Assembly: GCF_026151205.1 (NCBI RefSeq)
Contig: NC_087072.1
Coordinates: forward strand, 441,501 to 505,500
DNA length: 64,000 nt
Reading direction: 5' to 3'
Origin: Bolinopsis microptera
Lineage: Eukaryota > Ctenophora > Tentaculata > Lobata > Bolinopsidae
Each line of letters opens with the position of its first letter. The first letter of the stretch is position 1. The translations under genes were made by a program, and so were the position numbers. This document shows, one piece after another, positions 1,466-41,214 of this stretch. The notes beneath the pieces were generated by a model, which was given only the letters and a program-made list of their open reading frames with translations, searched no databases and was not told the origin of the DNA.

Positions 1466-8029
<6,564 letters not shown>

Positions 8030-8539
8030 GTTGTCCAAGTTGTCTGTTCGTTTGTCTGTTCGTCTGTAACCACTGTTCTATTATTAGCTAGGTCCCTTTG
8101 TTCTTCAAGTCCTCATGACATAACCTGTCAGGAAGTTATTGGACAAGGTTACCATGGTAACTGCAGCAGGTTATCATGGTAACTGCAATGCGAATCAAGG
8201 CTAAACGTTTGTTGGAGCAAAGAAGAGATATCTTACCTGAAAATGGGTTACAATCATTGATGCGATGGAAGTTAAAATTTATCTCATTTTTATCAAAACT
8301 AAAAATGAACCTTTGTACGGCACTTTGAGTCATGGATCGGGAAAAAATCAAAAACAACAATAAGATATGTTTAAAAGTAACATAAAAGTGAATCCACGGT
8401 ACAAAATTGACAGAAATATCAAACTGATTAATTCAATTAAAGTACAATATATAAATATTTCAAATTAATGTAACCTTATGCATAATAACAAATTATTAAA
8501 ATAATAAAAGCTGACAAACAATAAAGTTTAACGGTTTTC

Positions 8540-9243
8540 TCAAACAGGCTCCTCTATCCTGGTGTTGTTATTGTACAGACGATGAGAACAGAACAGATAA
8601 CTAAGAAGAGACAACGCCCACAAAACACCCGCGAACACGAAGGGAATCCAGTTCTTGTTCTCGCACTTTAACATCCCTGACTCTTCGTCCAGAACACATT
8701 TGTCGCTCCTAGGGGTGGTTAAGTGTTAAACATTTGTCGCTCCTAGGGGTGGTTAAGTGTTAAACATTTGTCGCCACTATAGTGCACTATAGGGTGCACT
8801 ACTAGGGTCTTTCCTTGAAATATTTCACAGTAGATGTGACAAGTCACTGAGAATGGCACAAGACACGATTGAGGTACTCAAAGTTCTATTCCCAAAGAAA
8901 GCTTTGATATTTAACAGGAAATCATCAGAATATAAAAAGATATTTTGGAATAGTTTTGAAGAGGAACTTTTCTGCCGTCCCTTTGACCAAAATTTCGCGG
9001 TTTTGACCGATTTTTGTTGTTGACCGAATTGATGCTTAGGTGGTTAAATGTAAAGCATCGGTCACTTAAAATATATTCAAGAACCAAGATGGGAAATGCA
9101 GAATAGTAAAAAAACTTACTCATAACAACATATAGACTGTACGAAGTTCATACAACATTTCATTGCGGGAGAACAGCACAAGTGAGGGTAAACTTGACTT
9201 CCACAACACTCCCACCCTGAGTCACAGCACCCTGAACCTACAC
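8540..9243 (-). CDS. Cys-pair-rich type I membrane protein, 3' part (last two exons)
   Basis: Penultimate exon 9243-9120 enters in phase 1 and leaves in phase 2. It codes a run of Cys pairs: GCCDSGWECCG, LCCSPAMKCC, SICCYE. The last exon 8708-8540 codes SDKCVLDEESG.., a transmembrane helix (about WIPFVFAGVLWALSLLSYLF) and a short tail ending EEPV. Exon phases and the pattern CC..ECCG..ICC..C.LD..C match the complete paralogue at 41557-43325 and the last two exons at 1466-4464. No 5' exons are seen next to it; upstream lies the 76-bp array that repeats this exon's acceptor and first 45 nt. The first two exons at 38019-40667 are phase-compatible and may belong to it. Its function is unknown; it is predicted to be a disulfide-rich cell-surface protein. 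Confidence 0.75.
8696..8770 (-). repeat. Duplicated acceptor of the transmembrane exon
   Basis: A 34-bp unit containing ccacccctag|GAGCGACAAATGT (3' splice site and first 13 nt of the exon 8708-8540) is present twice in tandem, with a third partial copy near 8763. Either acceptor could be recognised. Confidence 0.85.
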
Positions 9244-9301
9244 CTGAGGGGGCACAAGTCAGGGTAAACTTTACTTCCACAACACTCCCACCCTGAGTCA
9301 C

Positions 9302-9914
9302 TAGTGTAAAATAAGGTAGGCACCAGAACAGTCCTCCCGAGGCGTACCAATGGTATACAGTGCCTGCTCACAAGTCTCTCACTACACACTATACTCTCAG
9401 TCGTCGTAGCGACTGACAACTGCAATAACTCACAATAACTAAGTATTGAACTCTACGTTAATACGACAATCACGATAACTTGTATTGCCAATTACTCTGA
9501 TATGACTACTACATACATGCAACTAAGTGCGGTACTGTGAATCAAACGGTTCAAATGCTACAATTCGGTCCTAAGCTAGAGTTGAACAAAGGAAACAGTT
9601 GAATCGAGTAATAACGTTCGAATGATGAATATAAAGATATTATCAACAATCACAACTTAAACTGTGGCAAGACGGGCCACGTTTGGCGTTCTAGATCAGC
9701 GGTTAACACTTTGATTAAACACGTCACCTAAAGAGCTTTTCCAGAACTAATCCTAACGTGTCCAGAAATGCGTTATCGACACGCGCCACGTGATACCACG
9801 TGGTCACTTAACTACCTAAATCTACACTCATTACTAACGGTCATAATAATCACTAAATTACAATCTACACAACTGCTAAAACTACTCTAAAACTGCAGCC
9901 TACATATTACACTA
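9302..9914 (-). repeat. 3' LTR of the gypsy element
   Basis: 613 bp, with 8-bp inverted ends TAGTGTAA and TTACACTA. It contains two close CACGTG motifs (about 9787-9803, ccacgtgataccacgtgg). More acgtg-type motifs follow at 10050-10190, outside the LTR. No second full LTR exists in the window for comparison, so the limits rest on the terminal inverted repeat and the neighbouring purine tract. Confidence 0.75.
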
Positions 9915-11295
9915 TATCCCCCGGGAAAATTTAATCGATTTCGTCAATATCTCCAGGAGGTATTGACAAATTCGACTAAATCCCCCCTACCTACTACATC
10001 CTTTAAAAAAATCCTAAAACTCCCTCTTAAACAAACTACCCTAAAAAATTTACACGTGCTACAAAAATATAAAATTTTTAAAAAAATACGTGTACCATCA
10101 CGTACCAAATCTGAATAATTAAAACTACACGTGAAATCTCACGTGACACAATACAAATAAATTATAAAAACTAACGTGATACACTTCACGTTACAAACTT
10201 CAACTACTTCAAAATATTTACAAAACTTGCTACCCTACTAACTGTCCTTCTCCTAAACTGTCCCTCCTACTTCCCTTACTTCTTCTGCTGTTCTGTCGAA
10301 GTCGTAGCACCGTCTACCATCCACCGTCTCTGTCCACACCACCCGTTGTTGAACACGTCCTCCACAACCATACTCCTAATCCAGGTACCGTACATCTAGG
10401 CACGAACCTACACTTACACCATTATTTCCGTACACCTAGTTACGAACATAACTTACACAATTATCTCCGTACACCTAGTTACGAACATAACTTGCATAAT
10501 TATCTCCGTACACCTAGTTACGAACATAACTTACACAATTATCTCCGTACACCTAGTTACGAACATAACTTGCATAATTATCTCCGTACACCTAGTTACG
10601 AACATAACTTACACAATTATCTCCGTACACCTAGTTACGAACATAACTTGCATAATTATCTCCGTACACCTAGTTACGAACATAACTTACACAATTATCT
10701 CCGTACACCTAGTTACGAACATAACTTGCATAATTATCTCCGTACACCTAGTTACGAACATAACTTACACAATTATCTCCGTACACCTAGTTACGAACAT
10801 AACTTGCATAATTATCTCCGTACACCTAGTTACGAACATAACTTACACAATTATCTCCGTACACCTAGTTACGAACTTCACATAAGTCACTGCAGACCGT
10901 CATATTTATAGATATGAAGTCAAATCATCTAGATTAAACCTTATCGGCACATGATAAATCCAGTCATCTAAAGGCAAACCTAGGCATCAGGAGCGATGCT
11001 CTACCGGAACTCAAGGTGACTCACGCTCTACTCTTCTCCACGGTTCAATCAACTACTCCACCTCTAGCAAACTCTCCACTCTCCAGGGTAGCAAGCCCTT
11101 CAAAATAAAAACCAGACATCACTCAACCATATCAACCGATAATAAGGACACCAGGCGAACCCTTAGCACGGCGGGAGATAAGAAATGCAACGATGACCAC
11201 CTTCCACAGGTTCCAGGTAGTCTGCAAAACATGACAAATCGTCGTATCTGCCCGAGCAACAGGTAGTTAACTGGCATCCCTTGACCAGCAATCCT
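9915..11295 (-). repeat. Non-coding 3' region of the gypsy element with a 39-bp minisatellite
   Basis: At about 10405-10880, roughly 12 copies of a 39-bp unit (gtacacctagttacgaacat plus flank) alternate between two variants, cttgcataa and cttacacaa, giving a 78-bp dimer period. The plus-strand open frame through it arises only because 39 is a multiple of three. No env-like gene is seen. Confidence 0.85.
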
Positions 11296-14200
11296 CTAAA
11301 AACCAAGTAAACTATCCTTTACCACCTTCAATACAACACTAATTCTCGACACCGGTCTGTAGTAATCCGGCTTCTTTAATTCTGCTCTATTCCTTAGAGA
11401 ACGTCCTCCACTGACTACAGGTGTACTCTGTTCCTCAGGTGAGTAAGCTAGTGTACTGTTACTCTCCCCCAGTATGACAGGACTCAAACTATCCTCCATC
11501 CGGGATGTAGGTTCCTCAACCCCTCTGCCCCACCCGGGTGTGTGGAAAGATCCAAAACTCGATTCTGTCTCCTGGATAGGTGATGAAATATGAATAGGAG
11601 TGTTAACCCTAGCTGGTGTCTGAGGGTCATGTTGGATTGAAATGTCCTGACTTTCCGTTCTGAAGGGAAGTGAATATTCCGGTGATAGAGGTACGTCAGG
11701 AATATCAATATTCTGACTAGACAAGGTACTCTCTCGAACCACAGAACTCCCTCTCTCCACATGCTCAGGCATCCACTCCTCATCACTACTGCTATCACTA
11801 TCATCACTATCCCTTCTTACTGGGTCTTTTCTCACCGGCTCCACAGTATCTCTGCTGTCCTCACGAATCACTACTCTTTTCTCCGAGAATCTGTTCATCT
11901 CGTAGTGCTTCATTTTACAAATGTTCGTGACCTTCTCTAATCCAGGTCCGTACTCCACCACATACAAGTGATCATTTAGTACCTTCTTCACCTTGCACGG
12001 ACCCCTAAATCGTGGAGCAAACTTGTGTTTAGGACATTGCACTAACACGAAACAAAAGTCGTTCTCCTTAAAGTAAGGACCATGCAGGTTTCGATCATGT
12101 TGCCTCTGTGCATACATGAAATCTACATTAGCACTCTCTCTCACTCTCCTGATGATCCTCTTCATTTCTCTGTGAAGCTCGTACGCCTCCCTGGCAGCGG
12201 CGTTCCTCGTATCTGGCTGATGCTTTTCTCTATCATCTAACATCAGATTCAACGGCAAGTTGACCTCTCTGCCAAATATCATCTTGTGAGCAGAATACCC
12301 AGTTCTCCGGTTCTTCAAACAGTTCAAGGCAAATGTACTCTTGTCCAGGTACATATCCCAACAGTTCTCCTTTCCCCTAGGAATGCATGCACGCAACGCT
12401 CGATTTGTTCTCTTGTTGTTGCTCTCAGCACGGGCCGTGCTAGACGCTTTATACGATGTTCCGTGAGTTTTCTTGCACTCGAAAAACTCCCAAACTTCCT
12501 TGAAGAATTCTGCTCTGAACCCGGGGTGATTATCCACAATTAACTCCCGACACATTCCGAACTTTAATACCCAGTTCTTCATTATTGCTGCTATATTCTC
12601 CTTAGCAGTTTGACTCTTGACTGGAACTGCTACCAGATAGTTTGACCAGGCATCAGAGATAGTAAGGATGTATCGATATCCTCGGGGTGTTCTCTGATTT
12701 GCTGTCGGTACTATGTGATCAATTACAATAGCGTCATTGAAATGGTGGAAGAACAAATGCTTTAACGGTGCTTTCAGATAAGCTTTCGGCTGCTTCATCT
12801 CTCCGCATCTTATGCACGCTTTGATGTACATTTTGAAGTCCTGCTCCATCTTTGGCCAGTAGAAGTACTCCCTGCATTTCTCCACACAGGTGCTGATTCC
12901 CGGATGACAGTTGGTGATGTTGTCGTGAAACAGTCTCATGATCTCCTCTTCATAGCTGTCTGGTATCACGATTAACTCTCTCGAATCCTTCTCTTTTCTT
13001 GAAACCCACTTTCTCTTCAAGAGTCCGCTTTCATCCACTTTCATCAAGCTAAATTGGGTCCAATAGGTGATCAATTTGTCTGGCACACGGTTCACCTGGA
13101 TTGTTCCCCGGGCGCCGTCTTTAACCCACTGTTTCACAATCCTCAATATTGGATCCAAGTTCTGCTCTGTCTTGATCCTTTCTAAATCTGGTAAGCATTG
13201 GTTGTCTGTCTCTGTATCTGGTACTGCAAAGGTAACCTGTTTACAATTACCCTGCTTCTTCTGAAGTCGTGGCATCACATCGATGCTGCAAATACATACA
13301 GGAACATCCTTCTCCTTGAGCTTTACCATCCCCACATGTCCATCATGATTGTCCTCGAACAGGAGTTGTAGATCACTTTTCTCCGTTTGATCTCTCTTAG
13401 TCACCCCGTTCTCATCATGCTCATCAATTATCATCGCATCTGTACTCTGCTCTCTCCATATCTCATTCTTCCAGCCATTTATCCCCTCACTGATTACTAT
13501 CTCGCTCCCACTACTACACACTCTACTGTTCTCTCCCATACCGCACATGACGTTATCAGCGTCACTCACCGCACCAAAACTCTTCTCAGAGGATTCACTA
13601 ACGTCAGGAGCGTTATGACTCGGAATGGTATCGACACCCAGAGACCTGGTAAACTCCTCTCCTCTCGATCTCTCCGCTCCACTGACTTCTGTCTGGCATG
13701 ATGCTTCCACGAATTTCCTTCTGAATGGAAATCTGCTCAAAAAGTCACACAGCGTGTTCTCTTTTCCTTCAATGTGCACGATATCAAAGGAGTAGTTGGA
13801 GAGCTCCTGGCACTTCCTGATTAAGGCAGGATCTGATTTTGAGAACAGGGTGTCGCTCGCTGATAGGAGACTCTTACAGTCCGTTATAACTTTGAACTTG
13901 GTGTTTCTGAGATACATCTTCCAGTGATCAATGGCTATCACCATGGCATCAAATTCTAGCTGTGTCTGGCTCCTTTCTCTCTTGTAGGGTGGTACAGCTT
14001 TACTATAGAATGCTACTATTCTCCTCTCTCTCTTTCCATCTCGTACTATCTCCTGGCTCAAGGTAGCTCCGTATCCATGTTTGCTAGCGTCCACTGTCAG
14101 GTGATATGACTGGAATGGGTCCTCTGTATCAGGTATAGCCAACATCGTACTCTCCGCCACCGCTCTCTTTAGCTCCTCAAACGCCTCCTGGCACTCACTT

Positions 14201-16013
14201 GTCCACTCAAACTTGGCTTCCTTCGCTGTGAGCCGGTGAAGAGGCTTAGCGATTACACTGTACCTGGGTATCCACTTCCTCACGTAGTTCAAGGCACCTA
14301 ACACTTCCTGAACCCTCTTCACGGTGGTGGGAACAGGTAGGGCAAGTAGATCCTTAACCCTGTCCTCTGTGATCTGTACTCCGTCCTCGCTGATCGACAC
14401 ACCCACGAATGTAACTTTCTCCCTCAGTAGCATACATTTCTTGGGGGTCAATGTTAGATTTGCTTGAACCAGTCTCATCAGCAAGATCTCCAATCTGTCA
14501 AGATGTTCGCTCACAGTCTTTGAACTCAGGAACAGGTCGTCGATGAAGAATATTAACTGTTCTATCGGAACTGTTGCCAGAAGTTTCCACATCACCTTCG
14601 AGAACACGCCACTGGAGTTCTTGTGACCCATGATCATACGAGCCCAACAGTATGACCTTCCCCTGTGCATGAACGCTGTAACCTTCTTCGAATCCTCAGA
14701 GTATGGTATCTGCCAGAAACTCTTGGAGAGATCGAAGCTTGAATAAATAGAATCTGATCCTATCGTGTCTAACACGTGATTCAAGTTGGGTAACGGGTAT
14801 TTCTCATCCATGCAGACTTTGTTGGTACCCCTCAGGTCTGCTACCAACCTCCATGATTCAGGATCTGTATTCTTCTTTACCAGAAATATAGGATGGTTGA
14901 AGTCACTGGGTCCTTTCAAGGGCTCTGCTATTCCCGCTTTCACCATCTGTTCAATTTGGCGGTCCATCTCTGGCTGAAGTTTGTACGGGGTAGGTATAGG
15001 ATATGTCCAGCTGGGCGACTCTCCCTCCTTCATCTTGATCTTTGCTTCATACATATTGCAGCACCCGATATCAAATTCATCATGTGAGAAGCAGTCCCTG
15101 AATCTCCAGATTATCTCCTTCAGTCTGGTTCTCTCAGCGTTAGACATTGCCACCTCTATCTCGTCCAGCCCGAGTCTCTCAAACAACTCTCTCTGAATCC
15201 ATTTCTCCCCACCTATCTGTCCTGCTTTACTCCTGGTCTCCTGAGCTTGGTCATCAATTGTAGTCCCTCTCACTCCGACATCGTGACTCCTGCTCCTTTG
15301 CACGCCGTGTATGAAATCTTGATCGCCTACCGGCTTCAACAGTGCAATGATCTTGTTCTTGTGAATTGTTATCGGCTCATCAGTTGCGTTAATACACTTC
15401 ATCGGGACCAGTCTCTTCTCAGAGTGCACAACTGCATGAGCGAACAGAATTCCTGTCTCTCCAATACCTTTCTTGTACTGTGGCTCAATCAAACCCTTGA
15501 AGTCCACTCCTTTCGCCTGCAGCTTTCCACTGATGTATTGCACCGTGTTTGGAGGAATGACTGTGACTCTGCTACATCTCACTTTTATCTGCTGCTTAAC
15601 ATTCTCCGGCTTCTCTGTGAACGGCACATCATCTCCGTTATGCAGCACCAATCTGCACTTGTTATAATCCAGCGTCACTCTATTCGATCTCAAGAAATCG
15701 TCTCCAATCAGGAACTCTGTGTCTAACAGATCAGTTACCACGAAAGTGTGCACAAACTTATTTCCAGCAACCACCACTTCCATCTCTAACTCTCCTCTGA
15801 TTTGTATCGTGTCTTGAGAAAATGACTTCAAGGTCATGTCACACGGTCGGATCCCGCTCTCTAGTCTCAGTCCTCTCACAAAACCCGTGGACACAATACT
15901 CACAGCCGACCCGCTGTCAACAAAAAGGTAGGCTGCCACTCCTCTGCAACTCCCAGCCACCAAGATGTGTTTCCAGTTCACCGCATTCACCTCCTTCTGC
16001 TTCCCATATGATT
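11296..16013 (-). CDS. pol: Gypsy Pol polyprotein: protease, reverse transcriptase, RNase H, integrase
   Basis: An open frame of about 1564 codons runs from 15990; the frame is open further upstream, overlapping the end of gag in the -1 register, so a frameshift may express it. An aspartic protease signature VDSGSA is near residue 25. The reverse transcriptase has FIDD in place of YxDD and the conserved VTFVGVSI..LGALNYVRKWIP region (about 320-600). RNase H shows TVDASKHGYGA. Integrase has an HHCC zinc region (IKACIRCGEMK) and a DDE core: D in VIDHIV, D in IVDNHPGF, E in ARAESNNK. The order PR-RT-RH-IN marks Ty3/gypsy. The tail after integrase is acidic and Ser-rich. The frame is intact over its whole length, which suggests a fairly recent insertion. 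Confidence 0.93.
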
Positions 16014-17376
16014 TTAATTGCGACTGATGGGAAATGAATTTTGTCCAGTCGCACGCCCGTTTAAATGGTCTCTCTGCATTCCATGCTGTTCATTCACTGT
16101 GGGTCTGTACTGCCCTCCTCGTTCTCCAGATTGCCCTCTGTTGACGTTACAGAATCTCTGAATGTGTCCCTCACCCTGACAATTATAACAAATCAATGGC
16201 CTGCGACTCTCTCCTCTACTCGCACCTCCACTCGCCCCTCTACTCGCACCTCTACTCGCACCTCTGCTACTCCGCTCAACCGGACTCACTCTACTCCTAC
16301 AAACACTGGCAACATGCCCTTTACCTCCACACAGCTGGCACACAATATTGCTCCAACACGAGTCAGCCTTGTGACCCTTCTTCCCACACATTTGACAGTC
16401 ATTCTCATCCTCTTCTTTCTCACCTTGCCTGCCAACACCATAAGTAGGTGCCCGGAATTCCAGTGTATTTATTGGATCACTGTCAAGCTCTCCCTCTACT
16501 GCCTTGGATATGTGTTCCTCCTGTACAGCTAAACGGATCACACTATCAAAATCCTCTGTCTCCGTGTTCATCTGAAGGAGCCGTCTTTTAATAGCAGGGT
16601 CTCTCACGCCCTGTATCAACACAGTGATACCTGCACTCTCTCTCCACAGCTCTCGGGTAGATCTTCTCAGCAGTATCCCGTATTCTCTCTGCGAACTGCT
16701 CCACGCTCTCCAACACTTCCTGCTTCATCTTATGGAACGTTGTCCTCATTATTCTTGCATCAGTAGCGGGATATAGCTCTCTTTTCACCGCACCAATCAG
16801 CATCTTCACGTCACCTCTCTCATCACTGGATAGCCGGATGTTCTTCACTTTCTTGAACTTTGCATCGTCTTCTATCTGATTTGCAAGCCTCAAGTCGAGA
16901 TTGTCCTTTACTCCGCATAACAGGACCCACTGCTCGAATCTCTGCAGAAATGTACAGAAATCATCATTTTTCCTGTACCTCGGCGCCTTACATTTCATCG
17001 TGTACTCTCCCTTATCTCTCTCTGTATTTCCGGGTTGCAAATCACCACTATCAGTTGTTCTCGCTCTTTCTTGCAACAAGTTGCTCGTTCTCTCCATCTT
17101 TACATCTTGTTCCCTCATCAATCTCTCTCGCTCAAGCTCTGCTTCTTCTCTCCACCTGTTCATATCTCTCTCCAACTCTCTCACTCTGCTCAAACACTCC
17201 TCTCTCTTCTCGCTCAAATCAAACAACTCCACTTTGCTCTCTTTTATCTCCGCCTCTTTCTCACTTGTGTCCCAAGACTTCATTTCCAATTTCACCTCCA
17301 CAATCTGATCCACAACCCGTTTTTCCTCCTCTACTAGTTTTCTCATCTCCTGCTCCATGTTTGTGAGTCCAGACAT
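16014..17376 (-). pseudogene. gag: Gypsy Gag with one frameshift
   Basis: The start ATG is at 17376, only about 27 bp from the LTR remnant. The N-terminal half is a Glu/Arg-rich coiled coil followed by a capsid-like region. The frame breaks near 16655, at a ctctctctc run on the plus strand, and resumes in a second frame (16622-16014). That second frame holds three CCHC zinc knuckles (CQMCGKKGHKADSC, CQLCGGKGHVASVC, CYNCQGEGHIQRFC) and a small GASRGASR repeat. Knuckles are the nucleic-acid-binding part of Gag. An indel in the dinucleotide run explains the break; a sequencing error is possible. Confidence 0.85.
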
Positions 17377-17412
17377 AGTACCACTTTCCTAGGTTCTCCA
17401 GATAGTGTAAAA

Positions 17413-20400
17413 GCACCCTGAACCTACACCTGAGGGGGCACAAGTCAGGGTAAACTTTACTTCCACAACACTCCCACCCTGAGTCACAGCACCCTGAACC
17501 TACACCTGAGGGGGCACAAGTCAGGGTAAACTTTACTTCCACAACACTCCCACCCAGAGTTACAGCTCCCTGAACCTACACCTGAGGGGGCACAAGTCAG
17601 GGTAAACTTTACTTCCACAACACTCCCACCCTGAGTTACAGCACCCTGAACCTACACCTGAGGGGGCACAAGTCAGGGTAAACTTTACTTCCACAACACT
17701 CCCACCCTGAGTTACAGCACCCTGAACCTACACCTGAGGGGGCACAAGTCAGGGTAAACTTTACTTCCACAACACTCCCACCCTGAGTTACAGCACCCTG
17801 AACCTACACCTGAGGGGGCACAAGTCAGGGTAAACTTTACTTCCACAACACTCCCACCCTGAGTCACAGCACCCTGAACCTACACCTGAGGGGGCACAAG
17901 TCAGGGTAAACTTTACTTCCACAACACTCCCACCCTGAGTCACAGCACCCTGAACCTACACCTGAGGGGGCACAAGTCAGGGTAAACTTTACTTCCACAA
18001 CACTCCCACCCTGAGTCACAGCACCCTGAACCTACACCTGAGGGGGCACAAGTCAGGGTAAACTTTACTTCCACAACACTCCCACCCTGAGTCACAGCGC
18101 CCTGAACCTACACCTGAGGGGGCACAAGTCAGGGTAAACTTTACTTCCACAACACTCCCACCCTGAGTCACAGCACCCTGAACCTACACCTGAGGGGGCA
18201 CAAGTCAGGGTAAACTTTACTTCCACAACACTCCCACCCTGAGTTACAGCACCCTGAACCTACACCTGAGGGGGCACAAGTCAGGGTAAACTTTACTTCC
18301 ACAACACTCCCACCCTGAGTCACAGCACCCTGAACCTACACCTGAGGGGGCACAAGTCAGGGTAAACTTTACTTCCACAACACTCCCACCCTGAGTCACA
18401 GCACCCTGAACCTACACCTGAGGGGGCACAAGTCAGGGTAAACTTTACTTCCACAACACTCCCACCCTGAGTCACAGCACCCTGAACCTACACCTGAGGG
18501 GGCACAAGTCAGGGTAAACTTTACTTCCACAACACTACCACCCTGAGTCACAGCACCCTGAACCTACACCTGAGGGAGCACAAGTCAGGGTAAACTTTAC
18601 TTCCACAACACTCCCACCCTGAGTCACAGCACCCTGAACCTACACCTGAGGGGGCACAAGTCAGGGTAAACTTTACTTCCACAACACTCCCACCCTGAGT
18701 CACAGCGCCCTGAACCTACACCTGAGGGGGCACAAGTCAGGGTAAACTTTACTTCCACAACACTCCCACCCTGAGTCACAGCACCCTGAACCTACACCTG
18801 AGGGGGCACAAGTCAGGGTAAACTTTACTTCCACAACACTCCCACCCTGAGTCACAGCACCCTGAACCTACACCTGAGGGGGCACAAGTCAGGGTAAACT
18901 TTACTTCCACAACACTCCCACCCTGAGTCACAGCACCCTGAACCTACACCTGAGGGGGCACAAGTCAGGGTAAACTTTACTTCCACAACACTCCCACCCT
19001 GAGTCACAGCACCCTGAACCTACACCTGAGGGGGCACAAGTCAGGGTAAACTTTACTTCCACAACACTCCCACCCTGAGTCACAGCACCCTGAACCTACA
19101 CCTGAGGGGGCACAAGTCAGGGTAAACTTTACTTCCACAACACTCCCACCCTGAGTCACAGCACCCTGAACCTACACCTGAGGGGGCACAAGTCAGGGTA
19201 AACTTTACTTCCACAACACTCCCACCCTGAGTCACAGCACCCTGAACCTACACCTGAGGGGGCACAAGTCAGGGTAAACTTTACTTCCACAACACTCCCA
19301 CCCTGAGTCACAGCACCCTGAACCTACACCTGAGGGGGCACAAGTCAGGGTAAACTTTACTTCCACAACACTCCCACCCTGAGTCACAGCACCCTGAACC
19401 TACACCTGAGGGGGCACAAGTCAGGGTAAACTTTACTTCCACAACACTCCCACCCTGAGTCACAGCACCCTGAACCTACACCTGAGGGGGCACAAGTCAG
19501 GGTAAACTTTACTTCCACAACACTCCCACCCTGAGTCACAGCACCCTGAACCTACACCTGAGGGGGCACAAGTCAGGGTAAACTTTACTTCCACAACACT
19601 CCCACCCTGAGTCACAGCACCCTGAACCTACACCTGAGGGGGCACAAGTCAGGGTAAACTTTACTTCCACAACACTCCCACCCTGAGTCACAGCACCCTG
19701 AACCTACACCTGAGGGGGCACAAGTCAGGGTAAACTTTACTTCCACAACACTCCCACCCTGAGTCACAGCACCCTGAACCTACACCTGAGGGGGCACAAG
19801 TCAGGGTAAACTTTACTTCCACAACACTCCCACCCTGAGTCACAGCGCCCTGAACCTACACCTGAGGGGGCACAAGTCAGGGTAAACTTGACTTCCACAA
19901 CACTCCCACCCTGAGTCACAGCACCCTGAACCTACACCTGAGGGGGCACAAGTCAGGGTAAACTTTACTTCCACAACACTCCCCCCCTGAGTCACAGCAC
20001 CCTGAACCTACACCTGAGGGGGCAAAAGTCAGGGTAAACTTTACTTCCACAACACTCCCACCCTGAGTCACAGCACCCTGAACCTACACCTGAGGGGGCA
20101 CAAGTCAGGGTAAACTTTACTTCCACAACACTCCCACCCTGAGTCACAGCACCCTGAACCTACACCTGAGGGGGCACAAGTCAGGGTAAACTTTACTTCC
20201 ACAACACTCCCACCCTGAGTCACAGCACCCTGAACCTACACCTGAGGGGGCACAAGTCAGGGTAAACTTTACTTCCACAACACTCCCACCCTGAGTCACA
20301 GCACCCTGAACCTACACCTGAGGGGGCACAAGTCAGGGTAAACTTTACTTCCACAACACTCCCACCCTGAGTCACAGCACCCTGAACCTACACCTGAGGG

Positions 20401-23400
20401 GGCACAAGTCAGGGTAAACTTTACTTCCACAACACTCCCACCCTGAGTCACAGCACCCTGAACCTACACCTGAGGGGGCACAAGTCAGGGTAAACTTTAC
20501 TTCCACAACACTCCACCCTGAGTCACAGCACCCTGAACCTACACCTGAGGGGGCACAAGTCAGGGTAAACTTTACTTCCACAACACTCCCACCCTGAGTC
20601 ACAGCACCCTGAACCTACACCTGAGGGGGCACAAGTCAGGGTAAACTTTACTTCCACAACACTCCCACCCTGAGTCACAGCACCCTGAACCTACACCTGA
20701 GGGGGCACAAGTCAGGGTAAACTTTACTTCCACAACACTCCCACCCTGAGTCACAGCACCCTGAACCTACACCTGAGGGAGCACAAGTCAGGGTAAACTT
20801 TACTTCCACAACACTCCCACCCTGAGTCACAGCACCCTGAACCTACACCTGAGGGGGCACAAGTCAGGGTAAACTATACTTCCACAACACTCCCACCCTG
20901 AGTCACAGCACCCTGAACCTACACCTGAGGGGGCGAAAGTCAGGGTAAACTTTACTTCTACAACACTCCCACCCTGAGTCACAGCACCCTGAACCTACAC
21001 CTGAGGGGGCACAAGTCAGGGTAAACTTTACTTCCACAACACTCCCACCCTGAGTCACAGCACCCTGAACCTACACCTGAGGGGGCACAAGTCAGGGTAA
21101 ACTTTACTTCCACAACACTCCCACCCTGAGTCACAGCACCCTGAACCTACACCTGAGGGGGCACAAGTCAGGGTAAACTTTACTTCCACAACACTCCCAC
21201 CCTGAGTCACAGCACCCTGAACCTACACCTGAGGGGGCACAAGTCAGGGTAAACTTTACTTCCACAACACTCCCACCCTGAGTCACAGCACCCTGAACCT
21301 ACACCTGAGGGGGCACAAGTCAGGGTAAACTTTACTTCCACAACACTCCCACCCTGAGTCACAGCACCCTGAACCTACACCTGAGGGGGCACAAGTCAGG
21401 GTAAACTTTACTTCCACAACACTCCCACCCTGAGTCACAGCACCCTGAACCTACACCTGAGGGGGCACAAGTCAGGGTAAACTTTACTTCCACAACACTC
21501 CCACCCTGAGTCACAGCACCCTGAACCTACACCTGAGGGGGCACAAGTCAGGGTAAACTTTACTTCCACAACACTCCCACCCTGAGTCACAGCACCCTGA
21601 ACCTACACCTGAGGGGGCACAAGTCAGGGTAAACTTTACTTCCACAACACTCCCACCCTGAGTCACAGCACCCTGAACCTACACCTGAGGGGGCACAAGT
21701 CAGGGTAAACTTTACTTCCACAACACTCCCACCCTGAGTCACAGCACCCTGAACCTACACCTGAGGGGGCACAAGTCAGGGTAAACTTTACTTCCACAAC
21801 ACTCCCACCCTGAGTCACAGCACCCTGAACCTACACCTGAGGGGGCACAAGTCAGGGTAAACTTTACTTCCACAACACTCCCACCCTGAGTCACAGCACC
21901 CTGAACCTACACCTGAGGGGGCACAAGTCAGGGTAAACTTTACTTCCACAACACTCCCACCCTGAGTCACAGCACCCTGAACCTACACCTGAGGGGGCAC
22001 AAGTCAGGGTAAACTTTACTTCCACAACACTCCCACCCTGAGTCACAGCACCCTGAACCTACACCTGAGGGGGCACAAGTCAGGGTAAACTTTACTTCCA
22101 CAACACTCCCACCCTGAGTCACAGCACCCTGAACCTACACCTGAGGGGGCACAAGTCAGGGTAAACTTTACTTCCACAACACTCCCACCCTGAGTCACAG
22201 CACCCTGAACCTACACCTGAGGGGGCACAAGTCAGGGTAAACTTTACTTCCACAACACTCCCACCCTGAGTCACAGCACCCTGAACCTACACCTGAGGGG
22301 GCACAAGTCAGGGTAAACTTTACTTCCACAACACTCCCACCCTGAGTCACAGCACCCTGAACCTACACCTGAGGGGGCACAAGTCAGGGTAAACTTTACT
22401 TCCACAACACTCCCACCCTGAGTCACAGCACCCTGAACCTACACCTGAGGGGGCACAAGTCAGGGTAAACTTTACTTCCACAACACTCCCACCCTGAGTC
22501 ACAGCACCCTGAACCTACACCTGAGGGGGCACAAGTCAGGGTAAACTTTACTTCCACAACACTCCCACCCTGAGTCACAGCACCCTGAACCTACACCTGA
22601 GGGGGCACAAGTCAGGGTAAACTTTACTTCCACAACACTCCCACCCTGAGTCACAGCACCCTGAACCTACACCTGAGGGGGCACAAGTCAGGGTAAACTT
22701 TACTTCCACAACACTCCCACCCTGAGTCACAGCACCCTGAACCTACACCTGAGGGGGCACAAGTCAGGGTAAACTTTACTTCCACAACACTCCCACCCTG
22801 AGTCACAGCACCCTGAACCTACACCTGAGGGGGCACAAGTCAGGGTAAACTTTACTTCCACAACACTCCCACCCTGAGTCACAGCACCCTGAACCTACAC
22901 CTGAGGGGGCACAAGTCAGGGTAAACTTTACTTCCACAACACTCCCACCCTGAGTCACAGCACCCTGAACCTACACCTGAGGGGGCACAAGTCAGGGTAA
23001 ACTTTACTTCCACAACACTCCCACCCTGAGTCACAGCACCCTGAACCTACACCTGAGGGGGCACAAGTCAGGGTAAACTTTACTTCCACAACACTCCCAC
23101 CCTGAGTCACAGCACCCTGAACCTACACCTGAGGGGGCACAAGTCAGGGTAAACTTTACTTCCACAACACTCCCACCCTGAGTCACAGCACCCTGAACCT
23201 ACACCTGAGGGGGCACAAGTCAGGGTAAACTTTACTTCCACAACACTCCCACCCTGAGTCACAGCACCCTGAACCTACACCTGAGGGGGCACAAGTCAGG
23301 GTAAACTTTACTTCCACAACACTCCCACCCTGAGTCACAGCACCCTGAACCTACACCTGAGGGAGCACAAGTCAGGGTAAACTTTACTTCCACAACACTC

Positions 23401-26400
23401 CCACCCTGAGTCACAGCACCCTGAACCTACACCTGAGGGGGCACAAGTCAGGGTAAACTTTACTTCCACAACACTCCCACCCTGAGTCACAGCACCCTGA
23501 ACCTACACCTGAGGGGGCACAAGTCAGGGTAAACTTTACTTCCACAACACTCCCACCCTGAGTCACAGCACCCTGAACCTACACCTGAGGGGGCACAAGT
23601 CAGGGTAAACTTTACTTCCACAACACTCCCACCCTGAGTCACAGCACCCTGAACCTACACCTGAGGGGGCACAAGTCAGGGTAAACTTTACTTCCACAAC
23701 ACTCCCACCCTGAGTCACAGCACCCTGAACCTACACCTGAGGGGGCACAAGTCAGGGTAAACTTTACTTCCACAACACTCCCACCCTGAGTCACAGCACC
23801 CTGAACCTACACCTGAGGGGGCACAAGTCAGGGTAAACTTTACTTCCACAACACTCCCACCCTGAGTCACAGCACCCTGAACCTACACCTGAGGGGGCAC
23901 AAGTCAGGGTAAACTTTACTTCCACAACACTCCCACCCTGAGTCACAGCACCCTGAACCTACACCTGAGGGGGCACAAGTCAGGGTAAACTTTACTTCCA
24001 CAACACTCCCACCCTGAGTCACAGCACCCTGAACCTACACCTGAGGGGGCACAAGTCAGGGTAAACTTTACTTCCACAACACTCCCACCCTGAGTCACAG
24101 CACCCTGAACCTACACCTGAGGGGGCACAAGTCAGGGTAAACTTTACTTCCACAACACTCCCACCCTGAGTCACAGCACCCTGAACCTACACCTGAGGGG
24201 GCACAAGTCAGGGTAAACTTTACTTCCACAACACTCCCACCCTGAGTCACAGCACCCTGAACCTACACCTGAGGGGGCACAAGTCAGGGTAAACTTTACT
24301 TCCACAACACTCCCACCCTGAGTCACAGCACCCTGAACCTACACCTGAGGGGGCACAAGTCAGGGTAAACTTTACTTCCACAACACTCCCACCCTGAGTC
24401 ACAGCACCCTGAACCTACACCTGAGGGGGCACAAGTCAGGGTAAACTTTACTTCCACAACACTCCCACCCTGAGTCACAGCACCCTGAACCTACACCTGA
24501 GGGGGCACAAGTCAGGGTAAACTTTACTTCCACAACACTCCCACCCTGAGTCACAGCACCCTGAACCTACACCTGAGGGGGCACAAGTCAGGGTAAACTT
24601 TACTTCCACAACACTCCCACCCTGAGTCACAGCACCCTGAACCTACACCTGAGGGGGCACAAGTCAGGGTAAACTTTACTTCCACAACACTCCCACCCTG
24701 AGTCACAGCACCCTGAACCTACACCTGAGGGGGCACAAGTCAGGGTAAACTTTACTTCCACAACACTCCCACCCTGAGTCACAGCACCCTGAACCTACAC
24801 CTGAGGGAGCACAAGTCAGGGTAAACTTTACTTCCACAACACTCCCACCCTGAGTCACAGCACCCTGAACCTACACCTGAGGGGGCACAAGTCAGGGTAA
24901 ACTTTACTTCCACAACACTCCCACCCTGAGTCACAGCACCCTGAACCTACACCTGAGGGGGCACAAGTCAGGGTAAACTTTACTTCCACAACACTCCCAC
25001 CCTGAGTCACAGCACCCTGAACCTACACCTGAGGGGGCACAAGTCAGGGTAAACTTTACTTCCACAACACTCCCACCCTGAGTCACAGCACCCTGAACCT
25101 ACACCTGAGGGAGCACAAGTCAGGGTAAACTTTACTTCCACAACACTCCCACCCTGAGTTACAGCACCCTGAACCTACACCTGAGGGGGCACAAGTCAGG
25201 GTAAACTTTACTTCCACAACACTCCCACCCTGAGTCACAGCACCCTGAACCTACACCTGAGGGGGCACAAGTCAGGGTAAACTTTACTTCCACAACACTC
25301 CCACCCTGAGTCACAGCACCCTGAACCTACACCTGAGGGGGCACAAGTCAGGGTAAACTTTACTTCCACAACACTCCCACCCTGAGTCACAGCACCCTGA
25401 ACCTACACCTGAGGGGGCACAAGTCAGGGTAAACTTTACTTCCACAACACTCCCACCCAGAGTCACAGCGCCCTGAACCTACACCTGAGGGGGCACAAGT
25501 CAGGGTAAACTTTACTTCCACAACACTCCCACCCTGAGTCACAGCACCCTGAACCTACACCTGAGGGGGCACAAGTCAGGGTAAACTTTACTTCCACAAC
25601 ACTCCCACCCTGATCCTGAGTCACAGCACCCTGAACCTATACCTGAGGGGGCACAAGTCAGGGTAAACTTTACTTCCACAACACTCCCACCCTGAGTCAC
25701 AGCACCCTGAACCTACACCTGAGGGGGCACAAGTCAGGGTAAACTTTACTTCCACAACACTCCCACCCTGAGTCACAGCACCCTGAACCTACACCTGAGG
25801 GGGCACAAGTCAGGGTAAACTTTACTTCCACAACACTCCCACCCTGAGTCACAGCACCCTGAACCTACACCTGAGGGGGCACAAGTCAGGGTAAACTTTA
25901 CTTCCACAACACTCCCACCCTGATCCTGAGTCACAGCACCCTGAACCTATACCTGAGGGGGCACAAGTCAGGGTAAACTTTACTTCCACAACACTCCCAC
26001 CCTGAGTCACAGCACCCTGAACCTACACCTGAGGGGGCACAAGTCAGGGTAAACTTTACTTCCACAACACTCCCACCCTGAGTCACAGCACCCTGAACCT
26101 ACACCTGAGGGGGCACAAGTCAGGGTAAACTTTACTTCCACAACACTCCCACCCTGAGTCACAGCACCCTGAACCTACACCTGAGGGGGCACAAGTCAGG
26201 GTAAACTTTACTTCCACAACACTCCCACCCTGAGTCACAGCACCCTGAACCTACACCTGAGGGGGCACAAGTCAGGGTAAACTTTACTTCCACAACACTC
26301 CCACCCTGAGTCACAGCACCCTGAACCTACACCTGAGGGGGCACAAGTCAGGGTAAACTTTACTTCCACAACACTCCCACCCTGAGTCACAGCACCCTGA

Positions 26401-28836
26401 ACCTACACCTGAGGGGGCACAAGTCAGGGTAAACTTTACTTCCACAACACTACCACCCTGAGTCACAGCACCCTGAACCTACACCTGAGGGAGCACAAGT
26501 CAGGGTAAACTTTACTTCCACAACACTCCCACCCTGAGTCACAGCACCCTGAACCTACACCTGAGGGGGCACAAGTCAGGGTAAACTTTACTTCCACAAC
26601 ACTCCCACCCTGAGTCACAGCACCCTGAACCTACACCTGAGGGGGCACAAGTCAGGGTAAACTTTACTTCCACAACACTCCCACCCGGAGTCACAGCACC
26701 CTGAACCTACACCTGAGGGGGCACAAGTCAGGGTAAACTTTACTTCCACAACACTCCCACCCTGAGTCACAGCACCCTGAACCTACACCCGAGGGGGCAC
26801 AAGTCAGGGTAAACTTTACTTCCACAACACTCCCACCCTGAGTCACAGCACCCTGAACCTACACCTGAGGGGGCACAAGTCAGGGTAAACTTTACTTCCA
26901 CAACACTCCCACCCTGAGTCACAGCACCCTGAACCTACACCTGAGGGGGCACAAGTCAGGGTAAACTTTACTTCCACAACACATCCACCCTGAGTCACAG
27001 CACCCTGAACCTACACCTGAGGGGGCACAAGTCAGGGTAAACTTTACTTCCACAACACTCCCACCCTGAGTCACAGCACCCTGAACCTACACCTGAGGGG
27101 GCACAAGTCAGGGTAAACTTTACTTCCACAACACTCCCACCCTGAGTCACAGCACCCTGAACCTACACCTGAGGGGGCACAAGTCAGGGTAAACTTTACT
27201 TCCACAACACTCCCACCCTGAGTCACAGCACCCTGAACCTACACCTGAGGGGGCACAAGTCAGGGTAAACTTTACTTCCACAACACTCCCACCCTGAGTC
27301 ACAGCACCCTGAACCTACACCTGAGGGAGCACAAGTCAGGGTAAACTTTACTTCCACAACACTCCCACCCTGAGTCACAGCACCCTGAACCTACACCTGA
27401 GGGGGCACAAGTCAGGGTAAACTTTACTTCCACAACACTCCCACCCTGAGTCACAGCACCCTGAACCTACACCTGAGGGGGCACAAGTCAGGGTAAACTT
27501 TACTTCCACAACACTCCCACCCTGAGTCACATCACCCTGAACCTACACCTGAGGGGGCACAAGTCAGGGTAAACTTTACTTCCACAACACTCCCACCCTG
27601 AGTCACAGCACCCTGAACCTACACCTGAGGGGGTACAGGTCAGGGTAAACTTTACTTCCACAACACTCCCACCCTGAGTCACAGCGCCCTGAACCTACAC
27701 CTGAGGGGGCACAAGTCAGGGTAAACTTTACTTCCACCACACTCCCACCCTGAGTCACAGCACCCTGAACCTACACCTGAGGGGGCACAAGTCAGGGTAA
27801 ACTTTACTTCCACAACACTCCCACCCTGAGTCACAGCACCCTGAACCTACACCTGAGGGGGCACAAGTCAGGGTAAACTTTACTTCCACAACACTCCCAC
27901 CCTGAGTCACAGCACCCTGAACGGGGGGAATGCAACGTCAATTTATGTCAATTAATGTCAATTAATGTCAATTAATGTCAATTAATGTCAATTAATGTCA
28001 ATGTCAGTTTTGCAAAATTTTGGAATACTGACATTAATTGACACGATATTTTTCGACCACAGATTATGTAGTTCTACCATATTTTTAGCACTTTAGAACG
28101 TTTATATCATCAATTTATTCACTACTATCACATATGGAAATGAGAAATGTGAAAAAAATTCAGATCATTAAACAATAAAACTAAAATAATACGGTTTTCC
28201 GAAATTTAATTTTCTTAAATGGGCGTGGCCATCCAAGGGCGTGGTTCTCAACATCATCAGAACTTAAAACCCACATTAAACGAAATGCCTTCATGACATT
28301 TATATTTGAATAACGAATCTTAAACAGCTAACATTACTCCTTCATACTAAAAAAGCCGATTCTAGATATTTTACCTGTATAAGAAACCAATAAAATATGG
28401 GCGTGGCCGGTGGGGACCGAAGATGGAAGAGTTGGAAGCTGAAATTTTTTTGGTGGTCTTTAAACCTAAGGATCAACAGATAAGAACATACTCATAATTA
28501 TTCAAGGACATTTTGTTTTTTTGAACCGGTCTAACTTACATAGACGTGAATATCTTGAATATTTATCGAATAATGATAATCTCAAATTTCAAGACAAATT
28601 AATGTCAATTAATGTCAATTAATGTCAATTAATGTCAATTAATGTCAATTAATGTCAATTAATGTCAATTAATGTCAATGTCAGTTTGGGGTTTTCATGG
28701 AATACTGACATTAATTGACGTTGCATTCCCCCCCCCCCCTGAACCTACACCTGAGGGGGCACAAGTCAGGGTAAACTTTACTTCCACAACACTCCCACCC
28801 TGAGTCACAGCACCCTGAACCTACACCTGAGGGGGA
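17413..28836 (-). repeat. Giant 76-bp tandem array (about 140 units)
   Basis: The period is exactly 76 bp through 17413-27922, resuming at 28745-28836 after an inserted element; 1.6 more units lie at 9180-9301 beyond the gypsy element. Most units are identical or differ by one base (gagtcac/gagttac, gcacc/gcgcc, ggggca/gggagca). On the minus strand a unit reads: acceptor-like GTGCCCCCTCAG, 45 nt equal to the start of the Cys-rich exon 9243-9120 (GTGTAGGTTCAGGGTGCTGT and on), then GTAAAG, donor-like. It is therefore a multiplied 3' splice site plus exon start, not a satellite of unrelated origin. The array probably represents intron sequence. Its true length may exceed what the assembly shows. 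Confidence 0.96.
27923..28736. mobile_element. TIR element inserted in the 76-bp array, 8-bp target duplication
   Basis: Inverted ends ggggggaatgcaacgtcaat are flanked by the direct repeat ccctgaac (27915-27922 and 28737-28744), and the array continues in phase after it. An 8-bp duplication fits hAT-like elements. Both subterminal zones carry tandem attaatgtca repeats followed by an inverted pair aatgtcagt..actgacatt. No transposase is found in 814 bp, so it is non-autonomous. Confidence 0.85.
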
Positions 28837-38018: not shown

Positions 38019-40667
38019 CTGACTGAAAGCAGCAAGAAGGCTGGTCTCCACACCTCCCCTGCTCCGAATAAACACCAGCTAAGAAGTTCCAGCACTTCTC
38101 CTCGTCCCCCACGGCCCCTAACGGCCCCGGACTCTTCTCCGGGGGGTGCTGGTTCCAGGTAGTCGGGTCCGGTCTCTGGGTAGGGGTGTCCGGGGCCTTC
38201 TCCGTCACTACTGATACAGTCGCAGTGGGGGAGGTGGTGTTTTTAGCTTGTGTCCAGGGTGTACTGGTTACTAGGTTACCAGGTGTACTGGAGGGCGACG
38301 CTTCAAATCCTGTGCTCAATTCCCTGACGGTGAAAACACTTAATCATAGATTAGGTTTCATATCTTATCCGTAAACTAACACCATACCATTTAGACTAAC
38401 AACATACCATTACACTAACAACATACCATTAGACTAACACCATACCATTAGACTAACAACATACCATTAGACTAACAACATACCACTAGACTAACAACAT
38501 ACCACTAGACTAACACCATACCATTACAGGCACGTAGCCAGGGGGGGGGGGGGGCACACTGCTGCCATGGGCCCGACCATGCCAACTGTCCGTTAAAGTG
38601 AGATAATTAGCAAATTCTTAACTCAGAAATCCTCACTACAAGACAATTTCCCTAAAAGATCTGACAGCACCATCTAACTATGTAATACCACTCACACACT
38701 GTTCTTGTTTCAATATGAGCTTTATTTCTCTTCGGTGGCACCTCTCTGACTATTGAAGCAGAGACCTTCGTCACCGAAACCTAGAAGACTAACAAAGTAT
38801 ATTGTATAATCTATCTTGAACGAAGGGACACGCAGGGCTCTGTGGTCAGAATATAACTCTTACCATAAAAGACGTTGCCAATGTTAAATTGTTATGCTCA
38901 ATGCTCATGTTATGCGCATAATATTTGTGGGCAGAGCATACCCATTGTTAACGAGCACCAACAACCCCTGCTTCAACAGCTCAGTAATGATCTAGTTTTT
39001 AATACTAGTACTACTAACATAATAGAATCTGTCCCAGTCTACTAAAAGTAAAAATAGCGTCCCTTTTCTCGGGGGCCTCCATATTATCAGCTCAGCAGCT
39101 ATTGTCCAATATTGCAGGACCATCTAACTCGTTACTCCTTAACCTTAGGAGAGGTAGTATCTGAGAAGAGGTTGGGTCTGGGGCCAGGGACCCAGTTAAG
39201 CGCAACCAAGCACCAGTTTTGTCGTTTACAGAGTTGTTTATGTGGCTCCGCATATTGTCCCCCATTTGGGAAAGTTTCGCTATAAGGGTCCTCCGCCGTA
39301 GGGTCCTCCGCCGTAGTGTACCATTTTTATAGCGTCGTTCAATGCGTGACATTAATTTTGATCGTATAGATAAATTGCTAAACGATATTTTTACAGAATG
39401 AGATTCAAGTTAGTCATATTTGTGGTCTTGCTTGTGGGATGTAATGGAATTAACACAGGTGAGGTTTCACCCCCCCCTCCCTTTCACCTTCTAATCAGGG
39501 GTTACAAAAACGTGTGTTCAAAAAGTCTGTTCTAGTATTGAGCTGAGATATTACAGCTTTGATTGTCTCAGAGTTTAGTATGTAGTTTATCATTACATAA
39601 CATCATATTATTTCTCCAGGCCCTATTTTCACTCCGGTCACCCGAGATACCTTTATCTACGTGGACCTAGAGAAGGAGGATCTGTTGATAAGATCTGATG
39701 ATACCAGCTGGGAGACCGGGGAAAGGGTTTTTGTCATGATCTTTGATGAGACAAATTACAAGAAAATCAGTGCTTTCGCTCTTCTCTTCAGCGGAAATGA
39801 ATACACGTATCGTGTAGGGATGTGCTCAGACTGGTCAATGCCGTGGCAAAGCTTCTCGGGTAATATTCCAGAGGAGCAGAATAAAACTTGGAGAATATCA
39901 GAAAGATCAGACAGTCTGGTAGTTTCATGCAACAATGTTCAAGTTGCGGAGTATAAATTCTCCCACGGTGCTATGGGTCAATGTGCTGCACAGTGGGGTC
40001 TGGATGCAGCTAGGATCAAATTTCCAAGTTATCATACAGCTTCTGTTAGTTACGCTGTCGAACCGAGAATTGATACCGGTAAGCTCTTGATTTGAAAGAT
40101 TTACACAATCATATGTAAATGTACACTATCCCTAAATAAGCCATGACAACCCATGACCCTTGACCCCTTTTTTAATCCTAACATATTACATAAGTAATAC
40201 CTCCCCCCCCCCCCTATTCCTTCAATTACTATTTATCACTTAACTCCGATATCAATTGACGATTATCAGATCAATAATCCTGGAGAATTTTGAATTAAGA
40301 ACGTTTTTTTAGAGAGGCTGGGCCTGGGTGGCCCACGAGAGGATAGCATGTGGATGCTTTGCCTACCTCTGGGGTGTGGCAGTCCTATGGGAGGATGCAG
40401 GTCGCAGGAGGAATCAGAATGTGTAATATGGATGATGGTAAGTGTTGTAAGATGTGTCGTGTATGAACGCTTATGGGACATACACCCAGGCACGTAGCCA
40501 AGGGGGGGGGGGGGGGGGCCAAGGGGTATTATAAAAAAAATCCTGGCTACGTCCCTGTACCAGACTAACAACATACCACTACACTAACAACATACCATTC
40601 GACTAACAACATACCATTACACTTACCAGCAAATGCTGGACCACACTGCAAAAAACGTAAAGCTCAT
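38019..40667 (-). CDS. Cys-rich membrane-protein family member, 5' part (signal and mucin-like exons)
   Basis: Exon 1 (40667-40627) codes a short signal peptide MSFTFFAVWSSICW and ends in phase 2 with GTAAGT. Exon 2 (38323-38019) enters in phase 2 and leaves in phase 1 (CAG|GTCAGA, a weak donor). It codes a Thr/Pro/Ser-rich mucin-like stalk (TSTPWTQAKNTTSPTATVS..) and then EKCWNF..GRCGDQPSCCFQS. Signal exon, stalk exon and phases match the complete gene at 41557-43325. The two 3' exons expected (Cys pairs, transmembrane) are not found downstream until 9243-8540, whose phase fits. Intron 1 holds the taatggtatgttgttag array and, inside it, an inserted element bearing another gene. It may be a truncated gene if the distant exons are not joined. 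Confidence 0.62.
38377..38526 (-). repeat. 19-bp intronic minisatellite, split by an insertion
   Basis: Units of actaacaacataccattag lie here and again at 40558-40625. The second block starts exactly at the exon-1 donor (GTAAGTGTAATGGTATG on the minus strand). The two blocks were probably contiguous before the 38527-40557 segment was inserted. Confidence 0.8.
38600..39396. other. Unassigned interior of the bracketed segment
   Basis: No gene recognised. A minus-strand open frame at 39352-39092 contains a duplicated CGGCGGAGGACCCT-type 14-mer and no known domain. Confidence 0.35.
39398..40078 (+). CDS. Secreted protein of unknown domain family, 3' end uncertain
   Basis: Exon 1 (39398-39458) is a signal peptide (MRFKLVIFVVLLVGCNGINT) ending in phase 1. 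Exon 2 (39620-40078) enters and leaves in phase 1 and ends at ACCG|GTAAGC; if that donor is not used, the frame stops after five more codons at 40095. The exon codes about 153 residues rich in aromatics and Gly with three Cys (VGMCSDW, VVSCNN, GQCAAQW), resembling a beta-sandwich carbohydrate- or lipid-binding domain, but I cannot name the family. Both junctions fall in a similar NTG/DTG motif, so the exon is a symmetric module. It lies in an inserted segment within an intron of the opposite-strand gene. Confidence 0.6.
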
Positions 40668-41214
40668 TTTAATCCTCATATCTGTCCTTCAAACCGCTGC
40701 CAGTGCGTCTGTTTTTAATATTTCTTGTTCTTTTTTAATATTTCTTGTTCTTTTTTAATATTTCTTGTTCTTAGACTTTGTCCCTTGCTTAAATCATAGT
40801 TATTTGTGAGAAAGATTTATTCTTAGTCGAGAAATTCAAATTATTGATTGTAATAAAAACATTACCAATCGATTGAATCTGGAAATTGGCAAGATCAAAC
40901 TTCTAAGCAATTTCTTTTAATTCAGAATTGAAAACAAAATGTTAAGCTTCGAATTAAATAATATTGTAATAATGTGTCTTATCTACAGAAAACTATAAAA
41001 TAATTTAACAGATTCCAAAATGTTCCTCGGCCTGATCCAAACATATATACAGTATATTATTTATACATAACAGTGAATCTTTTATAGTCAGGGGGCAACA
41101 AGCAGGGATAATTAATTGTTGAATAATATAAATAATTATATAGCAGAATCACAGAATATAGTGGTATATTTTATGATCATATAATTAGGATAGAAAACAA
41201 ACTGTGTGAACTAA
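40668..41214. other. Spacer between two Cys-rich protein genes
   Basis: AT-rich. It contains three copies of a 21-bp tttaatatttcttgttcttt unit at 40715-40775. No coding signal seen. Confidence 0.45.

Follow-up and report, generated by a model that had tools for sequence, protein, structure and literature searches.

A 76-bp minisatellite array of about 140 units at a proposed intron/exon boundary in the ctenophore Bolinopsis microptera: a probable very large mirage

Introduction

Minisatellite duplications of an intron/exon boundary, called mirages, have been described in amphioxus in Adh3, in the globin genes BflGb6 and BflGb9 and in the troponin C gene, and they are reported to leave splicing undisturbed (PMC3087553, PMC3902484). 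Additionally, tandem arrays and internal gene duplication have been associated with intron gain (Rogers 1989, Zhuo 2007, Gao and Lynch 2009, all cited by PMC3087553). At the level of titles and the first lines of abstracts, in mostly non-subscription literature, no animal besides amphioxus with mirages or minisatellites at splice sites was found.

Here we analyse a tandem array of 76-bp units in Bolinopsis microptera, in a window of 64,000 nucleotides (NC_087072.1, contig C1 below, positions 441,501 to 505,500; coordinates below are those of the window, unless a locus or contig is named). The amphioxus mirages, as reported, and this array both have a unit that crosses an exon-intron boundary, so that the splice signal is repeated, units that are homogenised in the cluster and less so at its boundaries, and the authentic gene copy at the array edge. 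In amphioxus both acceptors and donors are affected, as in this window (PMC3087553, PMC3902484).

Results

The 76-bp array and its interruptions

An earlier note, made from the letters of this DNA, had given positions 9120-28836 for the array, but not all of this stretch is array, which is broken by a Ty3-type retroelement (9302-17411) and by a TIR element (about 27923-28738). From its upstream end, the region is composed as follows.

28739..28835, minus strand: first array unit (acceptor 28835-28827, unit from 28826) followed by the beginning of the second (28750-28739), both ahead of the TIR element
27923..28738, no strand assigned: TIR element inserted in one unit, with inner ends AATGCAACGTCAATT / AATTGACGTTGCATT behind G and C runs
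17412..27922, minus strand: tandem array of 76-bp units, 137 of them whole (27852-17430), with parts of both element-split units
9302..17411, minus strand: Ty3-type retroelement of 8.1 kb inserted in one unit; matches above the Pfam cut-off for RT, RNase H and integrase zinc-binding
9244..9301, minus strand: remainder of the Ty3-split unit, adjoining the terminal copy

TRF gave a period of 76, 138.2 copies and 99% matches at 17412-27922, and unit-by-unit alignment resolved the 137 whole units at 27852-17430 into 21 types, with 105 of the 137 identical to the consensus; two units carry a 6-bp insertion (82 bp). With the first unit and the TIR- and Ty3-split units included, the total comes to 140 units plus the copy inside exon 9243-9120, which is our own tally from the sequence, the alignment and the element edges, and agrees with the roughly 140 tandem units claimed before. 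The TIR element lies inside the second unit and the Ty3-type element inside the last unit ahead of the exon, and the whole is one original array, later split by two mobile elements.

The consensus unit reads GTGTAGG...GGAA/GTAAAG...CCCCCTCAG, that is, the acceptor CCCCCTCAG, then 45 nt, then GTAAAG, exactly the make-up that the earlier note had given. Its other structural statements were likewise confirmed: the 45 nt enter and leave in phase 1, successive 45-nt blocks are separated by 31 nt (107 nt if one unit is skipped), and the terminal copy in exon 9243-9120 has GTCAAG where the consensus unit has GTAAAG, the exon then running on to GTAAGT after 9120. The unit and this exon are alike over 68 nt, as far as 9176, apart from two differences, so that a unit consists of 8-9 nt of intron end and 67-68 nt of the exon. 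The label 'microexon' is one reading of this structure. Among the genome matches listed (264.65-Mb assembly, 232 contigs; repeat counts being 'at least' values), all fell within the array or exon 9243-9120. A structured RNA from the unit was rejected, as its fold does not surpass that of shuffled sequences (z 0.02), and no Rfam family reached the gathering score within the 64-kb window.

The TIR element has an apparent 6-bp target duplication (GTTCAG), its exact ends being ambiguous within the G run, and AATTAATGTC arrays lie close to both of its ends. In the Ty3-type element, the protease and rve matches are below the Pfam cut-off, and the gag- and pol-like frames are open, with the gag-like ATG about 30 nt from the element edge. 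No direct repeat of at least 40 nt pairs its ends and no target duplication was found, while the 9-nt TTTACACTA is present at both ends; it is possibly an unusual LTR-poor element.

Gene B and its local paralogs

The array lies in intron 2 of what is probably a gene, here gene B, for a small cell-surface protein, and it has two neighbouring paralogs.

40627..40679, minus strand: proposed gene B exon 1, signal-peptide-like by eye, phase 2 exit
38019..38323, minus strand: proposed gene B exon 2, P/T/S-rich and then Cys-rich, phase 1 exit at AGTCAG/GTCAGA
9120..9243, minus strand: gene B exon 3 (Cys-pair exon), phase 1 entry, phase 2 exit at GTAAGT, its first 68 nt being the terminal unit copy
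8540..8708, minus strand: gene B exon 4, transmembrane-like by eye, with stop; acceptor within a 34-bp x2.3 array (8696-8774)
41557..43325, minus strand: gene A, a paralog encoding 209 aa in 4 exons; a 20-bp x14 array (42264-42545) contains the end of its Cys-pair exon and the donor there
1466..8029, minus strand: gene C, a paralog encoding 389 aa in 9 exons; it has five LDLa domains (Pfam E 7.8e-32), a Cys-pair exon and a transmembrane-like exon

Without any unit, gene B is open through its four exons for 216 aa. Together the three models have 17 exons, which join in phase into open frames with AG/GT at all internal edges, an agreement that is not fully independent because the edges were picked by eye with phase as one guide. 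The three genes share a common plan of a signal-peptide-like exon (phase 2 exit), a Cys-pair exon (in all three phase 1 in and phase 2 out at GTAAGT) and a transmembrane-like exon with the stop, the signal peptides and membrane spans being called by eye. Judged from these models, exon 9243-9120 is very probably a genuine exon.

Residues 31-176 of A align with residues 26-205 of B (E 1e-13, helped by low complexity), and the transmembrane-like exon of B aligns without gaps with that of A (3e-7) and more weakly with that of C (0.001). Searched against the genome, the gene A transmembrane-like exon matched only itself and gene C (2.1e-4), gene B being absent, and therefore A, B and C appear to form a small local family of diverged membrane proteins, for which a role in adhesion or recognition would be a guess. 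The Cys-pair peptides of A and C gave self matches only in the genome. Neither gene B nor its Cys-pair exon has a Pfam match, on which ground granulin or another known Cys domain was rejected for this exon.

Two further features were observed in these genes. The Cys-pair exon of gene C holds, at 4241-4441 (minus strand), an in-frame 42-bp x4.8 repeat (14 aa); it is a candidate for a stalk of variable length, encoded with no need for splicing. In a gene B intron, on the opposite strand, a single open frame at 29503-30015 (plus strand) has a sub-threshold HIRAN match (E 0.0021).

Frame, donor and spacing of the units

The earlier note held that units could be joined without breaking the frame, and this is supported: the proposed exon 2 exits in phase 1, and when one 45-nt unit is conceptually joined between exons 2 and 3, the frame stays open into the transmembrane-like exon. 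However, a unit has this phase and open frame because it copies coding sequence, so that the GTAAAG donor is the only thing extra.

On a generic matrix made for this analysis, the unit donor scores 0.13, the authentic donor after 9120 1.86, that of gene C 2.45 and that of gene A 5.73; the authentic donor of gene B scores just 1.86 because its exon side is poor, and the matrix sets it apart from the unit donor only modestly. An out-of-phase GT inside the unit scores 1.76, and an in-phase donor as good as 0.13 was found in 36% of codon-shuffled exon heads. Of 32 sushi exons that have a single possible donor, 8 carry an A at donor position +5, as GTAAAG does; outside this tally are 38 exons with more than one candidate, 2 lacking any and 18 in which the frame does not close within 90 nt. 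As for spacing, the smallest of the 14 introns in the A, B and C models is 85 nt, against 31 nt between neighbouring units, which is therefore below spliceable length by this measure, and 107 nt when a unit is skipped.

Mutation pattern within the units

The units hold 21 distinct substitutions, of which 9 are nonsynonymous, 2 create stops, 2 are synonymous and 8 fall in the intronic 31-nt part, where 8.6, 1.0, 2.9 and 8.6 are expected under neutrality. Synonymous changes make up 2 of the 13 exonic types against an expected share of 0.233, which gives no sign of constraint on the exon units in a test of low power (13 exonic changes in a young array). The spectrum is thus indistinguishable from neutral. 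Further variants are a one-base deletion that shifts the frame and one lost acceptor AG, and 8 units have a Cys number other than four. As microexons, 5 of the 137 units are broken and 132 are unbroken (the two 82-bp units stood outside this count), which indicates that the array is young and the selection test weak; youth rather than disuse could be the cause of the neutral spectrum. Variant units are scarce in the middle half of the array (7 of 32; shuffle p 0.0003) and the ends are more varied, as unequal exchange predicts.

Other arrays at splice sites

Ten arrays that straddle an exon edge were picked by eye, and not blind, in C1:421501-505500. Five lie in the window, namely the 76-bp array, the 34-bp array at the gene B transmembrane-like acceptor, the 20-bp array at the gene A Cys-pair donor, and two more:

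50217..50662, minus strand: 51-bp x8.7 array spanning the acceptor and the first 8 nt of a C-type-lectin-like exon (by eye)
5829..5965, minus strand: 25-bp x5.5 array holding the acceptor of the gene C LDLa exon 5835-5713

The others, of 38, 54, 79, 83 and 91 bp, are at exon edges in loci L022-L023, where the exons are sushi by eye or by scored matches. The paralogous LDLa exon of gene C at 4902-4783 has a single acceptor copy, and the two exons suggest the states before and after array growth, with one copy and 5.5 copies, respectively.

Several arrays deserve description in their own right. At 7048-7179 (minus strand), an orphan array repeats the 25-bp LDLa acceptor unit 5.3 times and no LDLa exon follows. 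Directly at the gene A Cys-pair exon, 42264-42545 (minus strand) holds fourteen tandem splice donor copies, and a 26-bp x7 array at 43092-43273 (minus strand) begins about 5 nt past the gene A signal-peptide-like exon. In L022, a 54-bp x44 array (7031-9427, plus strand) consists of a sushi-like exon end and a GTAAGT donor (by eye), has long open frames on both strands, and is a second very large array of the boundary type nearby. In L023 (466-1101, plus strand), the 83-bp unit at a sushi acceptor carries a 12-nt inverted copy of part of its own exon (GCATGCGACTAC / GTAGTCGCATGC), perhaps from template switching before the tandem expansion.

The ten arrays found by eye suggested a special enrichment at splice sites and hence a dedicated mechanism, for which sushi loci were surveyed. 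From 150 scored matches, 90 loci were taken, the best 30 and 60 more picked down the list blind to arrays; long open frames account for most of the matches left out and near-duplicates for some, certain loci overlap, and L062 was kept despite a stop inside its match. Arrays with a period of at least 15 occur at 33 of the 90 loci. Straddling arrays occur at 4 of the 90 (L040, L050, L099, L112), where 3.47 would be expected if the founding unit were placed at random, with edges set by eye and arrays listed when ending at most 25 nt before or starting at most 90 nt after the domain, so that some may be missed. Three of the four are at C1:0.39-0.44 Mb, near the 76-bp array, and L040 and L050 were already on the by-eye list. 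The sample therefore gives no support to a special mechanism, without being firm evidence against one. None is needed, because in a genome rich in minisatellites some exon edges will be struck by chance, and those arrays survive that leave a working edge.

Discussion

Based on these findings, we propose that the array is likely a very large mirage, a skippable and drifting minisatellite rather than a working store of protein modules. The tandem unit spans an exon-intron boundary, where the exon status comes from the gene models; the authentic boundary stands at the array edge, the terminal copy running into exon 3 and the proposed gene B remaining intact with 216 aa; and a homogenised array (105 of 137 units identical) whose variants lie towards the ends (the middle half holding 7 of 32, p 0.0003) points to minisatellite turnover. 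The neutral-like spectrum of the units, the comparable arrays at other splice sites and the anatomy shared with the amphioxus mirages speak for this reading as well. First, a 76-bp segment across the boundary of intron 2 and exon 3 of gene B would have been tandemly duplicated, and unequal exchange would then have expanded and homogenised the duplication to about 140 units, into which the TIR and Ty3-type elements would later have inserted. In the mature mRNA, the terminal copy (9243) would follow directly on exon 2 (38019), because the terminal acceptor alone opens the full 124-nt exon with its GTAAGT donor, and the spliceosome would presumably pass over the upstream units because their in-phase donors are weak and the gaps too short. 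The remaining units would be at most weak decoys, their occasional inclusion being noise. The missing GTAAAG donor of the terminal copy could hint at selection, and either direction of change is possible. Points against the mirage reading are the small matrix difference between authentic and unit donors, the few exonic changes in a young array, and the fact that the gene B transmembrane-like exon is missing from the genome matches of its gene A counterpart.

An alternative, which we hold to be unlikely, is that the field of decoys is regulatory, with some 140 acceptors in competition and an intron just under 29 kb long slowing or lowering productive gene B splicing or, where a unit acceptor is chosen, giving truncated soluble forms that end at the stop in the next unit. 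The consensus unit does have a C-rich acceptor and, about 15 nt ahead of the exon, CTGAC, which we take to be a branch-point-like motif, and an unspliced phase 1 reading from a unit reaches a stop after 31 codons. However, the neutral spectrum gives no sign of acceptor upkeep, and amphioxus mirages reportedly do not disturb splicing (PMC3087553, PMC3902484). The earlier note had itself named decoy acceptors as the alternative to its main reading, and of the two this fits better, although we see the units as weak decoys at most.

That main reading, a maintained reservoir of units behind a length-variable surface protein, fared worse, and we regard it as highly improbable. Some units would be spliced in as symmetric 45-nt exons, with at least one skipped each time to leave a 107-nt intron, and the protein would vary in its number of VGSGCCDSGWECCGS blocks. 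The open frame of the one-unit join, the mere 5 broken units among 137, the +5 A donors in 8 of 32 sushi exons, the nearness of the unit donor to the authentic one on the generic matrix (0.13 vs 1.86) and the in-frame 14-aa repeat in the Cys-pair exon of paralog C all speak for it. Against it stand the neutral spectrum, the variants crowded at the ends, a weak donor that 36% of codon-shuffled heads equal, and a spacing of 31 nt where the smallest of 14 introns has 85 nt; additionally, the unit length is a multiple of three in only 2 of the 10 nearby straddling arrays (51 and 54 bp), which is no sign of frame selection. Slighter still is the chance that gene B is a length-hypervariable surface receptor, whose copy number differs between animals or somatically and whose spaced units are spliced; if this were true, cells or individuals would carry different numbers of four-Cys, 15-residue stalk blocks, and the mirage would be an intermediate towards new repeat exons.

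That the copy number is partly a product of assembly has next to no probability, since the variants ordered towards both ends and the insertions of two different elements argue for a real long array, even though near-identical 76-bp units are hard to assemble and one amphioxus mirage was apparently misassembled in a draft genome (PMC3087553).

Two uses follow from the array. About 140 near-identical acceptors ahead of one exon are a natural experiment on acceptor choice by the spliceosome, and they offer a test bed for the proposal that boundary arrays seed new exons and introns. The survey of sushi loci, a single sample in which hits on exon edges were roughly as frequent as chance placement would give, suggests that mirages are a by-product of dense minisatellites.

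Compared with known systems, the 76-bp array resembles insect Dscam, where numerous similar exon-like units likewise lie between a pair of constant exons. The alternative exons of Dscam have diverged, are under selection and have ordinary introns between them, whereas the units here are nearly identical, under no visible selection and 31 nt apart. With the systems proposed for intron gain, the array has in common a duplicated segment whose AG/GT signals could make new exons or introns, but here the units would have stayed intronic. The closest likeness is to the amphioxus mirages, from which the array differs in its ctenophore rather than cephalochordate host, in its two mobile-element interruptions, in a splicing pattern that we infer, and in scale, with about 140 units and more than 10 kb, where the two BflGb6 haplotypes have 6 and 3 units. 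Judged from genomic sequence, the array would extend the mirage phenomenon, seen in amphioxus alone in the literature searched, to a ctenophore and to a much larger scale.
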